This document shows, in pieces, positions 3,657 to 7,081 of a DNA stretch of 64,000 nt. Both the position numbers and the translations under genes were made by a program. Below the pieces are notes generated by a model. The model worked only from the letters and a program-made list of their open reading frames with translations, did not search any database and was not told where the DNA came from. Positions within the stretch are counted from its first letter, which is position 1; each line of letters starts with the position of its first letter. Source of the DNA: an uncultured Desulfobacterales bacterium (GTDB lineage Bacteria; Desulfobacterota; Desulfobacteria; Desulfobacterales; SpSt-501). The stretch lies in assembly GCA_938048455.1 (NCBI GenBank), contig CALIUY010000017.1:62001-126000 (forward strand), given 5' to 3'.

Positions 3657-4952
3657 ATGGCGGCACGGAAACCCGGCATTCCCCGCGGATACCGTAAAGC
3701 GCTGGAGATCGGACGTCCCCCCAACATCCGCGCGCTGTTCCCCCATTCCTCGGCCCTGCTCGTGAGCGGCAAGTTCATCGACCGCGCGATGCTCGCCAAA
3801 GGCCGTGCCGTGGCCCTGGCGGCGAACGGCCGCAACGCCTTCGTCATCCGCGGGGCTCTGCGCGCCGCCCAGCGGGCCAACGCCGCGCTCATCGTGGAAA
3901 TCGCCAAGTCCGAAGGCGGCACGAACGCCTACTGCGCCGTCAACTTCTGGAATCTCGCCCGGCTGGTCGACACCTTCTGCAACGAGATGGGCATCACGGT
4001 GCCGGTGGCCGTTCACGCCGACCATTACGGCATCAAGGGACCGAAGGATCTGGAGACCGCCCGAACCGAAATCCCCTCCATGTTCGAGGCGGGGATCACC
4101 TCCATCGCCATCGACGCCTCCCACCTGCCCGACGCCGAAAACCTGCTCGCCAGCATCGAGCTCAACCCGCTCGTGCCGCGCTGGGCGGGGCTGGAAACCG
4201 AGGTGGGCGAGATCAAGGGCTCGCAGGGGTTGTCCACCCCCGAAGAGGCCCTCTTCTTGATCCGCGGCCTGAACGCCCACGGAATCTTTCCGGATTGGAT
4301 CGCCTTGAACAACGGGACCACCCACGGCATCGAGGAAAGCGACTCCGGCATCCAGGTCGAGCTCACCCGCCGGATTCACGAGGTCCTCGCCCCCTACGGC
4401 GTCTCGGGGGCCCAGCACGGCACCTCGGGCAACAGCAGCGAACGGCTGCGGGCCATCGCCGAGACGACCCGCACGACCAAGGCGAACGTCGCCACCTCGT
4501 TGCAGATGATCTCCTGGGGCGTCGAGGTAAACGACTACGGCAATGCCATCCTGGACGGCCAGGGACGCTTCATCAAGCACCCGGATCGCGGCATGAGCGA
4601 AGCCCTGTGGCAGGAGATGGTCGCTTACGCCGACGCCCGGAATCTCAAGCCGGGAGATTACAAGAAGCTCAATCTGCCCTTCGAAAACAAGCTCCTCGCC
4701 CAGCCGCGGGCGATCCGCGAACGCATGGTCCGGGCAGTCGAGGAATTCGCCTACCACCTGATCCGGCGCGTGTTCCATTCGGAGGACACCGCCCCGATCG
4801 CCCTCGAGCTCATCCTCGAAAGCCGCAGTTACCGCCCGCCGGCCAAGGCGCGGCGGATCGAGAAGCCCTCCGCCTGGACTGCGGAGCGCATCCGCGAGCA
4901 GGCCGCCACGCTGCAGGCCGATAAAGGGCCGAAAGGCGACTTCGACGACTGA
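3657..4952 (+). CDS. fba: Class II fructose-bisphosphate aldolase
   Basis: Cleaves fructose 1,6-bisphosphate to dihydroxyacetone phosphate and glyceraldehyde 3-phosphate, or the reverse in gluconeogenesis, using a divalent metal. The 431-residue protein shows the class II metal/catalytic pattern VHADHYG, the NNGTTHG loop and HGTSGNSS (the equivalent of HGGSG). It belongs to the longer class II branch of about 430 residues rather than the 300-360-residue E. coli form. The ATG at 3657 has AGGAG 6 nt upstream. It has its own promoter and long leader, and a GC hairpin follows the stop, so it is probably monocistronic. Confidence 0.9.
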   Translation: MAARKPGIPRGYRKALEIGRPPNIRALFPHSSALLVSGKFIDRAMLAKGRAVALAANGRNAFVIRGALRAAQRANAALIVEIAKSEGGTNAYCAVNFWNLARLVDTFCNEMGITVPVAVHADHYGIKGPKDLETARTEIPSMFEAGITSIAIDASHLPDAENLLASIELNPLVPRWAGLETEVGEIKGSQGLSTPEEALFLIRGLNAHGIFPDWIALNNGTTHGIEESDSGIQVELTRRIHEVLAPYGVSGAQHGTSGNSSERLRAIAETTRTTKANVATSLQMISWGVEVNDYGNAILDGQGRFIKHPDRGMSEALWQEMVAYADARNLKPGDYKKLNLPFENKLLAQPRAIRERMVRAVEEFAYHLIRRVFHSEDTAPIALELILESRSYRPPAKARRIEKPSAWTAERIREQAATLQADKGPKGDFDD

Positions 4953-5047: not shown

Positions 5048-5074
5048 TAAAGTTTTGGGTTCCCCTGCCGATAC
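5048..5074 (+). promoter_or_regulatory. FliA (sigma-28) promoter, near consensus
   Basis: TAAAGTTT, exactly 11 nt, GCCGATAC, against the FliA consensus TAAAGTTT-N11-GCCGATAA: 15 of 16 positions match with ideal spacing. Transcription would start near 5081, giving a very short leader with the AGGAGG ribosome site at 5083-5088 and the ATG at 5097. Confidence 0.75.
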
Positions 5075-5096
5075 CTCCGGTCAGGAGGCATGCCGG

Positions 5097-5642
5097 ATGC
5101 AAATCGACGGACCCCGGGTGCAGTGCCTGCTCGAATGCTACGGCCGGAAACTGGCCGCCGCCCGCCGCAGGGGGGAAGCGCAGGCGGGGGTTCCAGCCGC
5201 CGACGCCGCCCTCTCGCGCGAAGAGACGCGGGAGGCGGCGCGGGCGAAAATCACGCGCCAGCTCTGGCGGAAAGTGAGCGGGGTCGTCGCCGGAAGGCTT
5301 GCCGACCGCGGAAGCGGGGCCTTCGGCATGGGGCAGGAAAAGGAGGAGGCCATGTTGGACGTGATCGGAGAGGCGGCAGCGCAGCAACTGCCGCGGATCG
5401 GCCTGTACGGGGGAGGCCGGGAGCAGGAACCGCTCCTTCAGAAAGCCGAGCGCCTGCGCGAAACCCGACCCGTGGAACCGGCGGGCGAAGGGGAGAAAGC
5501 CCGCGCCGCAAGCGAAGAAGGCCGGGTGCACAACCGCACCCGCCTGGAAGACGGCACGATCATCGTCGAGAAGTACGACGAGGACGGCAAGCTGATCCGC
5601 CGCACCCCCCCGGGGTACCTTCCCTTCGGCGAAATCGCCTGA
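5097..5642 (+). CDS. Conserved hypothetical protein, putative motility-associated
   Basis: A 181-residue cytoplasmic-looking protein with no signal peptide or membrane segment; function not recognised. The start is fixed by AGGAGG 8 nt upstream. The N-terminal half is helical and Arg/Ala/Glu-rich. The middle is low complexity. The last 30 residues carry a TIIVEKYDEDG-LIRRTPPGYLP motif that loosely resembles the C-terminal strand pair of FlaG-like proteins and recurs in deltaproteobacterial small proteins. A near-perfect FliA promoter sits directly upstream, so it is probably expressed with late flagellar/chemotaxis genes. It converges on hisF with 12 bp between stops. Confidence 0.6.
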   Translation: MQIDGPRVQCLLECYGRKLAAARRRGEAQAGVPAADAALSREETREAARAKITRQLWRKVSGVVAGRLADRGSGAFGMGQEKEEAMLDVIGEAAAQQLPRIGLYGGGREQEPLLQKAERLRETRPVEPAGEGEKARAASEEGRVHNRTRLEDGTIIVEKYDEDGKLIRRTPPGYLPFGEIA

Positions 5643-5654
5643 GGCACGCGCCCT

Positions 5655-6434
5655 TTACCAGCGCATGCGGACGGGAACGCCCCAGCGTTGCAGGGCGGAC
5701 TTGATGTCGGGGATCGTCCAGGTCCCGAAATGGACCAGGGAGGCGATCAGCGCGGCATCGGCGCCCCCGCGGGTGAGGACCTCCCGCAGGTGCTCGGGCC
5801 GTCCCGCCCCGCCCGAGGCGATGACCGGGATCCCCACCCGGGAGGCCATTCGGGCCGTGATCGCCAGCTCGTAACCTTCCTGCGTGCCGTCGGCGTCGAT
5901 GGAATTGAGGCAGATCTCGCCCGCCCCCCGCGCCTGCGCCTCCTCGGCCCACGCCAGCGCATCCCGACCGGTGGGAACGCGCCCGCCGTCGATCACCACC
6001 TCGTAGCCCGAGGGGATCCCCGGGCGCACCCCCACGCGCAGAACGTCCATGCCCAGAACGATGCACTGCCGGCCGAAGGCGGCGGCCCCTTCGTCGATCA
6101 GCTCCGGCCGCCGCAGCGCCGCCGAGTTGACACTGACCTTTTCCGCCCCCGCGAGCAGGACTTCGCGCATGTCCCCGACCGAGCGGATGCCGCCGCCCAC
6201 GGAAAAAGGGATGAAGATCGTTTCGGCCACCCGCCGCACGACTTCGATCAGAATGCCGCGGCGCTCGGCCGAGGCGGTGATGTCGTAGAAGACGATCTCG
6301 TCGGCCCCCTGCTCGTAGTAGTGGCGGGCCATCGCCACGGGGTCGCCGACATCGATGTTCTCGCGGAAGCGGATCCCCTTGGTCGTGCGGCCGTCGCGCA
6401 CGTCGAGGCAGACGATGATGCGCTTGCTCAGCAC
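5655..6434 (-). CDS. hisF: Imidazole glycerol phosphate synthase, cyclase subunit
   Basis: Together with HisH it forms imidazole-glycerol phosphate and AICAR from PRFAR and glutamine-derived ammonia in histidine synthesis. The 259-residue beta/alpha barrel keeps catalytic Asp11 (CLDV) and the second Asp in GMDV, plus GGGIR and ASGGAG phosphate loops. The start is GTG at 6434, overlapping the hisH stop by 7 bp. The sequence ([27 protein letters not shown]) is of the Desulfovibrio type rather than the Geobacter type. It is the last gene of cvpA-mazG-hisH-hisF; the other his genes are not in the window. Confidence 0.92.
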
Positions 6435-7081
6435 GAAGCCGCCTCCCCTCCGCCGCAGGGAACCCAGCGGCAAAAATTTTCCAGCAGGCGCAACCCCGGC
6501 CGGCCGCTCTTTTCGGGATGAAACTGCACGGCGACCAGGCTGCCGCGGCCGATCACCGCGGGAAAGACGATCCCGTGGTCGCTTTCGGCGAGCACGCAGG
6601 CCGGGTCCTCCGGCTGGGGGTAGAAGCCGTGGACGAAGTAAAAGGCCTCCTCGGCCGCCAGCCCCTCGAAAATCGGGTGCGGCCGACGCCGGCGAAGCGT
6701 ATTCCAGCCCATGTGCGGGATCTTGAGCGCCCTGCCCGCGGGGTCGCGAAGCGCCTCGGGAAAGGCGCGCACCCGGCCGGCGATCAGGTTCAGACAAACG
6801 GTGTCGTTTTCCTCGCTGTGGCCGAGCACGATCTGGCATCCGAGACAGATGCCGAGCATCGGCTTGCCCGCGGCGAACTGCCGGGCGAGTTCCCGGTCGA
6901 GTCCGGCCTCCCGGAGACTCTCCATCGCCGCCCCCGCCGCTCCGACGCCGGGGATGACGATGCGCTCGGCCCCGCCGAGAAGGGCGGGGTCCCGCGTGAC
7001 CTTCCAGGCGACGCCGAGGAAGGAGAGCGCCCGCCCCACGCTGGTCAGGTTTCCCGCCCGGTAATCGACGATCGCGATCAT
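6428..7081 (-). CDS. hisH: Imidazole glycerol phosphate synthase, glutaminase subunit
   Basis: A class I glutamine amidotransferase of 217 residues that hydrolyses glutamine and channels ammonia to HisF. The nucleophile Cys lies in GICLGCQ, and the His/Glu pair in the C-terminal FHPEKS block. The start ATG at 7081 overlaps the mazG stop (ATGA), and its own stop overlaps hisF, so translation is probably coupled throughout. GCQ in place of the more common GMQ after the nucleophile motif is seen in related bacteria. Confidence 0.92.

Follow-up and report, generated by a model that had tools for sequence, protein, structure and literature searches.

A fused two-part gene behind a conserved FliA-type promoter as a probable late flagellar gene in a Desulfobacterales bacterium

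Within a 64-kb stretch of DNA from an uncultured Desulfobacterales bacterium (here referred to as the window) lies a gene of 181 codons which, judging from its promoter and those of its homologues, very probably belongs to the late flagellar regulon and depends on FliA (sigma-28) for its transcription. The gene is composed of two parts, A and B, which are separate neighbouring genes in relatives of the same genus and order and form a single fused gene in the window. A reading of the window from sequence only had taken the gene for a candidate member, so far undescribed, of the late (FliA) flagellar regulon, and this proposal is supported both by conserved sites upstream of homologues and by their co-occurrence with flagellin. 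The sequence shows the site itself, its conservation, the fusion, the flagellar association and, for the B genomes tested, the absence of FlaG. Taken as a whole, the explanation that we favour, a FliA-dependent late flagellar gene that was formed by fusion of A and B and has a FlaG-like role, is reasonably probable; the FlaG-like role on its own, namely the tuning of filament export or length, is put forward tentatively, from sequence comparison and analogy. The late regulon itself is known and the family of gene A has already been named; the B family and the fusion have no Pfam or NCBIfam entry. With them, a protein family that has no name, and whose promoter is conserved and open to test, would join the late flagellar regulon in bacteria related to sulfate reducers, a group for which no regulon study was among the papers listed by our literature search.

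The predicted FliA promoter consists of a -35 element, TAAAGTTT, at positions 5048–5055 and a -10 element, GCCGATAC, at 5067–5074 of the forward strand, separated by a spacer of 11 nt; sites of this type are conserved upstream of gene A. TAAAGTTT-N11-GCCGATAC agrees with the consensus at 15/16 positions with N11 spacing, as the sequence-only reading had stated. It is the sole site with ≤3 mismatches in the 64-kb window (mean of 0.07 in dinucleotide shuffles). The same architecture and spacing are found in the Escherichia coli tar promoter, TAAAGTTT-N11-GCCGATAA, as given in excerpts of PMC4183435. Transcription would start just after position 5074, leaving a leader of about 15 nt. A ribosome-binding site, AGGAGG, can be read from the sequence at 5083–5088 (forward strand) with the ATG 8 nt downstream; this site and the 181-residue frame, which runs on the same strand from the ATG at 5097 to 5642, stop codon included, are likewise as first described. 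The -10 octamer lies 22 nt from the ATG, and the start position at 5097 is conserved among the homologues. The fused gene is flanked by an aldolase-like gene (3657–4952) and a convergent hisF-like gene (5655–6839; both named by eye), and among 18 distinct genomes in which the neighbouring genes were inspected, eight have an aldolase-like gene upstream (by eye). The earlier statement that no flagellar gene lies within 60 kb agrees with our own inspection by eye, in which none was recognised from the first 70 residues of the 54 long ORFs that a simple script listed for the window.

Flagellar genes are present elsewhere in the host genome (3.38 Mb, 96.5% complete). It encodes FliA (TIGR02479, 245.9 bits, above the cut-off) as well as FlgM, flagellin and FlgL, and a large flagellar gene set was seen by eye on contigs C38 and C49; all recognised flagellar genes are on contigs other than C17, which carries the fused gene, and flgM, located on C4, is not its neighbour. 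Sigma-28 promoters fire once FlgM has been exported and FliA is free. Across the host genome, 4 sites have ≤1 mismatch to the FliA consensus, 8 have ≤2 and 15 have ≤3, and the reversed pattern used as a control gives 7 sites with ≤3 mismatches. When 6 Mb of sequence was simulated with a third-order Markov model trained on the window and searched on both strands, there were zero sites with ≤2 mismatches, and the scaled expectation for sites with ≤3 mismatches is 3.9 per genome. FliA-like sites in the host genome precede flagellin (1 mismatch), flgM (2 mismatches), a gene for a Cache-domain methyl-accepting chemotaxis protein (MCP; 3 mismatches) and cheX (3 mismatches).

The promoter is conserved among homologues. 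When spacers of 10–12 nt are permitted, a FliA site with ≤3 mismatches lies within 800 bp before B in 49 of 58 loci with B (including five extra copies, in G200, G169 (twice), G093 and G129), compared with 1 locus for the reversed pattern, 3 for the box-swapped pattern, 1 for the opposite strand and 2 for the downstream control; of the two downstream matches, one follows the gene in G058 and the other that in G105, and both look like real sites. The check that the initial reading had suggested, namely for upstream FliA sites at homologues, thus came out in its favour (49/58 versus 1–3/58 in controls), and two of the three homologues outside the order also have such a site. At four of the 58 loci the best site has 4 mismatches, a level also reached by some controls, and five loci are without a site: those in G058 and G105, that in G161, where the contig ends 139 bp upstream of the homologue, and the additional copies of B carried by G093 and G129. 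All 50 loci with a recognisable A have, within the 20–90 nt before the A start to which this search was confined, a best site with 0–4 mismatches (0, 1, 2, 3 and 4 mismatches at 1, 14, 15, 16 and 4 loci, respectively). In 47 of them, the -10 octamer is 19–23 nt from the A start codon, a clustering that is informative because the site was free to lie anywhere within the 20–90 nt. Within the -10 core CCGAT, conservation ranges from 43 to 50 of the 50 loci per position. The spacer is 11 nt long in 26 loci and 12 nt in 24, and this about equal use of both lengths sets the family apart from the E. coli FliA genes. To our knowledge, the fused gene has no counterpart in E. coli.

Among the 53 genomes with B, A and B are separate in 48 and fused in two, B is found alone in two, and in one the locus is cut by a contig end; A was located by a start-motif pattern, so the A counts favour typical A genes (one spurious A, in G169b, was removed before the count of 50). 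Gene A encodes about 80–150 residues and gene B about 97. In alignments, the first ~75 residues of the window protein (5097–5321) correspond to the first, N-terminal half of A, and residues 86–181 (5352–5639) to the whole of B, both on the forward strand; the second half of A is absent from the window protein. The genome of a sister species (G003/L001), which comes from another assembly, contains the same fusion, also of 181 residues and with 78% identity. Between these two orthologues dN/dS is 0.22, indicative of purifying selection, and substitutions number 61 at third codon positions versus 23 and 23 at the other two; since they are mostly at third positions, translation of the fused frame, and selection on it, are very likely. 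The recurrence of the same fusion, at equal length, in a different species and a separate assembly rules out a sequencing error as its origin, and a mis-called ORF was likewise considered and rejected. In the proposed model, two neighbouring genes of a small operon were fused in the lineage of the window species and its sister, with the first half of A being kept and joined to B.

The A part resembles the DVU0524 family (NF041863, ‘FlgM-associated protein’), with which gene A shares its N-terminal ~60 residues (YQ[MI]HNVLxxY[SR]KQLS ... DxVxLS). NF041863 matches residues 7–56 of the window protein with an E-value of 0.0043 and 17.4 bits, so that the curated cut-off of 40 bits for membership is not reached. 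The separate A proteins match NF041863 in 15 of 15 cases at E ≤0.1 (best 2.3e-17), and it is on these separate genes that the link between A and DVU0524 rests, because weak matches are found in control genomes too: in a genome-level search the window protein scores 20.1 bits, and 7 of 14 control genomes also have a match at E ≤10, none of them over the cut-off. The window protein further differs from DVU0524 in that the second half of A is missing and B is attached, and in that the flgM neighbourhood implied by the family name is absent (C4 versus C17). The initial description of the gene as unrecognised therefore fails for its N-terminal half, which has this weak match to a named family, and stands for the rest. 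Our literature search by term returned no mention of ‘DVU0524’ or ‘FlgM-associated’.

No Pfam or NCBIfam family matches the window protein above its cut-off. Pfam scans of 15 separate A proteins and 16 B proteins, and an NCBIfam scan of the 16 B proteins, identified no family; where one or two proteins of a set did match a family (best E 0.0019), this was attributed to chance. A further five B homologues have weak and scattered Pfam matches (best E 0.0067), and the four of them scanned against NCBIfam have none. In addition to an RPVE motif, B carries the C-terminal motif EKYDxxGxLIxRxPP, which had been picked out beforehand as conserved-looking and is indeed the best-conserved stretch of the family. 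The AlphaFold models are poor, with a mean pLDDT of 62.1 for the fusion and 62.6 for B, and within them a C-terminal β-hairpin is predicted with a block pLDDT of 73–84. A Foldseek search of the PDB with this B model (mean pLDDT 62.6) returned nothing at E ≤0.001, the top match being a monellin chain at E 0.5, and profile searches of PDB sequences reached a best E-value of 0.071 for A and 1.8 for B. The product would be small and mostly helical or disordered, with a C-terminal β-hairpin resembling that of FlaG.

Of the 340 Desulfobacterales genomes searched, 53 carry B, and a flagellin-family match was found in 48 of these 53 compared with 133 of the 287 genomes without B (p = 4e-10); the test used PF00669, which also matches FlgL, as seen for the host genome (G000), so the match in some genomes may be FlgL, which would still mark a flagellum. 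That homologues should occur in flagellated genomes is borne out by these counts, with five exceptions, G161, G174, G255, G267 and G315, which are 64–98% complete. A FliA site is still present in four of the five, the exception being G161, whose contig ends too soon. A search at the level of the phylum found B in 5 of 395 genomes, G000 and G058 among them, and the other three, G468, G563 and G603, are outside the order. In G563 (locus L174) and G603 (L175), B is located behind its own FliA site with 1 mismatch, whose -35 box begins 91 and 85 nt, respectively, before the B start codon; neither locus has an A within the stretch examined, and in G468 there is no FliA site upstream of B. B without A is thus seen in 2 of the 53 genomes, in the five extra copies and in L174 and L175 as far as these were fetched.

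In a sample made up of the first 92 genomes, FlaG (PF03646) is found in 27 and B in 16, and the two are never found together; the exclusion has a p-value of 7e-8 among the 49 flagellin-positive genomes and of 1e-5 when counted by family (n = 39; B in 10, FlaG in 23, shared by none). The p-values ignore phylogeny below the family, and seven of the 49 flagellin-positive genomes have neither B nor FlaG. By comparison with PF00669, the flagellin of B genomes is of a divergent type: an E-value stronger than 1e-25 is reached in 1 of 48 B genomes versus 25 of 26 FlaG genomes. With its genomes carrying a different flagellin, B may therefore mark another filament lineage rather than a replacement of FlaG. 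Profiles were built from 51 B and 23 FlaG proteins, with four of 27 FlaG and two of 30 FlgM loci left out at contig edges, and HHalign aligns B with FlaG at a score of 29.5 and a probability of 60% over 23 columns covering EKYDxxGxLIxRxPP. The maximum in 150 column shuffles, an easy null, is 13.7, and the reversed template scores 14.4; among comparisons of real families, B versus FlgM scores 11.2 and A versus B 17.2. The second half of A versus FlaG gives a weaker signal than B does, with a score of 22.5 and a probability of 9%. The likeness of B and FlaG, a weak profile similarity, concerns the C-terminal β-hairpin ending in [IV]R.[IT]PP. B differs from FlaG in ending soon after this PP, whereas FlaG continues for about 20 residues, and in having the conserved RPVE block, of which none was seen by eye in the FlaG set. 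Pfam FlaG is absent from the 22 B-carrying proteins scanned, namely the window protein (E ≤10), 16 B proteins (E ≤1) and five more (E ≤10). According to excerpts of PMC12445086, FlaG of Campylobacter jejuni is a secreted protein that binds FlhA in competition with FliS and restricts the length of the filament.

A FlaG-like role is proposed, tentatively, as the most likely function because of the mutual exclusion of B and FlaG, the divergent flagellin, the weak match of the hairpin profiles and the precedent of C. jejuni FlaG. Like FlaG, the product would act at a late stage of assembly by binding the export gate or flagellin, and would in this way tune filament export or length in bacteria that are without FlaG and have a divergent flagellin. 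A more far-reaching version, in which the A-B unit is a lineage-specific replacement of FlaG, with the two being either strongly diverged or unrelated late-flagellar regulators swapped together with the type of flagellin, and in which the window fusion controls flagellin export, seems rather doubtful. If the FlaG-like reading is true, control of filament length was replaced along with flagellin in this lineage, and the fusion would be a single small protein with which to probe FlaG-like hairpins at the export gate.

Other functions can be considered for a late flagellar gene of this kind. The neighbours of B in some genomes suggest an accessory protein of the motor or of chemotaxis, acting on stators, switch or receptors and not on filament assembly: B follows a MotA/TolQ/ExbB-family gene and a gene for an OmpA-domain, MotB-like protein (MotB_plug below the cut-off) in G563, and a similar ORF in G603 (by eye), an MCP-like ORF is found upstream of B in G058 (locus L173; by eye), and FliA controls chemotaxis genes in E. 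coli (excerpts of PMC4183435). This is nonetheless unlikely, as such a neighbour was recognised solely in G058 among the 18 distinct genomes inspected and the filament is what the mutual exclusion of B and FlaG suggests as the place of action. We consider it distinctly unlikely that the A part is a relative or partner of FlgM and that the product regulates FliA in a feedback loop, either as a second anti-sigma factor or as a helper of FlgM. FlgM (PF04316) is likewise a short late-regulon protein with a faint N-terminal profile similarity to A, NCBIfam terms the A family FlgM-associated, the HHalign score of A versus FlgM (25.4) is above the shuffle maximum of 17.5, and flgM is present in 15 of the 16 B genomes of the 92-genome sample. 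The HHalign probability is, however, 16%, and the alignment spans the N-terminal half of FlgM (‘Y..Q...D.V.LS’) and leaves its second half uncovered; true FlgM is encoded elsewhere in the host genome, on a separate contig, B sometimes occurs without A, and neither the window protein nor any of the 15 A proteins has a Pfam FlgM match. It is very unlikely that the flagellum exports the product to serve as an effector or as an extracellular component: the low-complexity middle part and late timing of expression would suit an export substrate, and C. jejuni FlaG is a secreted protein (excerpts of PMC12445086), but conservation in B is confined to a small hairpin and not to an enzyme or adhesin domain. 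A chance promoter match at a gene unrelated to flagella, for which one could cite the roughly four sites with 3 mismatches expected by chance and the lack of a convincing gene downstream of C44:1062, one of the four best host sites, is hardly credible and already contradicted by the zero sites with ≤2 mismatches in 6 Mb of simulated sequence and by the conservation of the promoter at 50 loci, among which the leader varies little in length.

Some further sites and loci are of interest beyond the fused gene. The flagellin gene with the 1-mismatch FliA site in the host genome (L172; G000:C49:3-275, minus strand) is truncated by the contig end; at the N-terminus its best matches are PRK12688 and PRK14708, models of long flagellins, and not the common FliC. 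Additional FliA-like sites in the same genome precede genes for a DUF4388 protein (1 mismatch), a PP2C phosphatase (2 mismatches), a T2SSF/PilC-type protein (2 mismatches) and a helix-turn-helix (HTH) protein (2 mismatches). The first of these (L027; G000:C2:22394) is 72 nt upstream of a gene for a 351-residue protein whose DUF4388 match is borderline, and by its promoter this gene is another candidate for the late regulon. The same sequence, TCAAGTTT-N11-GCCGATAG, is found at G000:C17:26323 (L033), where the T2SSF/PilC-type gene lies 120 nt after the beginning of the site, and at G000:C11:26776 (L032), where the HTH-domain gene lies 59 nt after it. A gene for a type IV pilus or for secretion may be under the control of the late regulon here. 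Among the homologues, B in G058 (L173) and G105 (L104) has no FliA site upstream, and a site with 1–2 mismatches directly after it points downstream. The extra copies L109, L110 and L113 (in G200 and G169) are shortened B paralogues without an adjoining A, which have their own FliA-like sites, with 2–3 mismatches, 117–145 nt upstream of the match.
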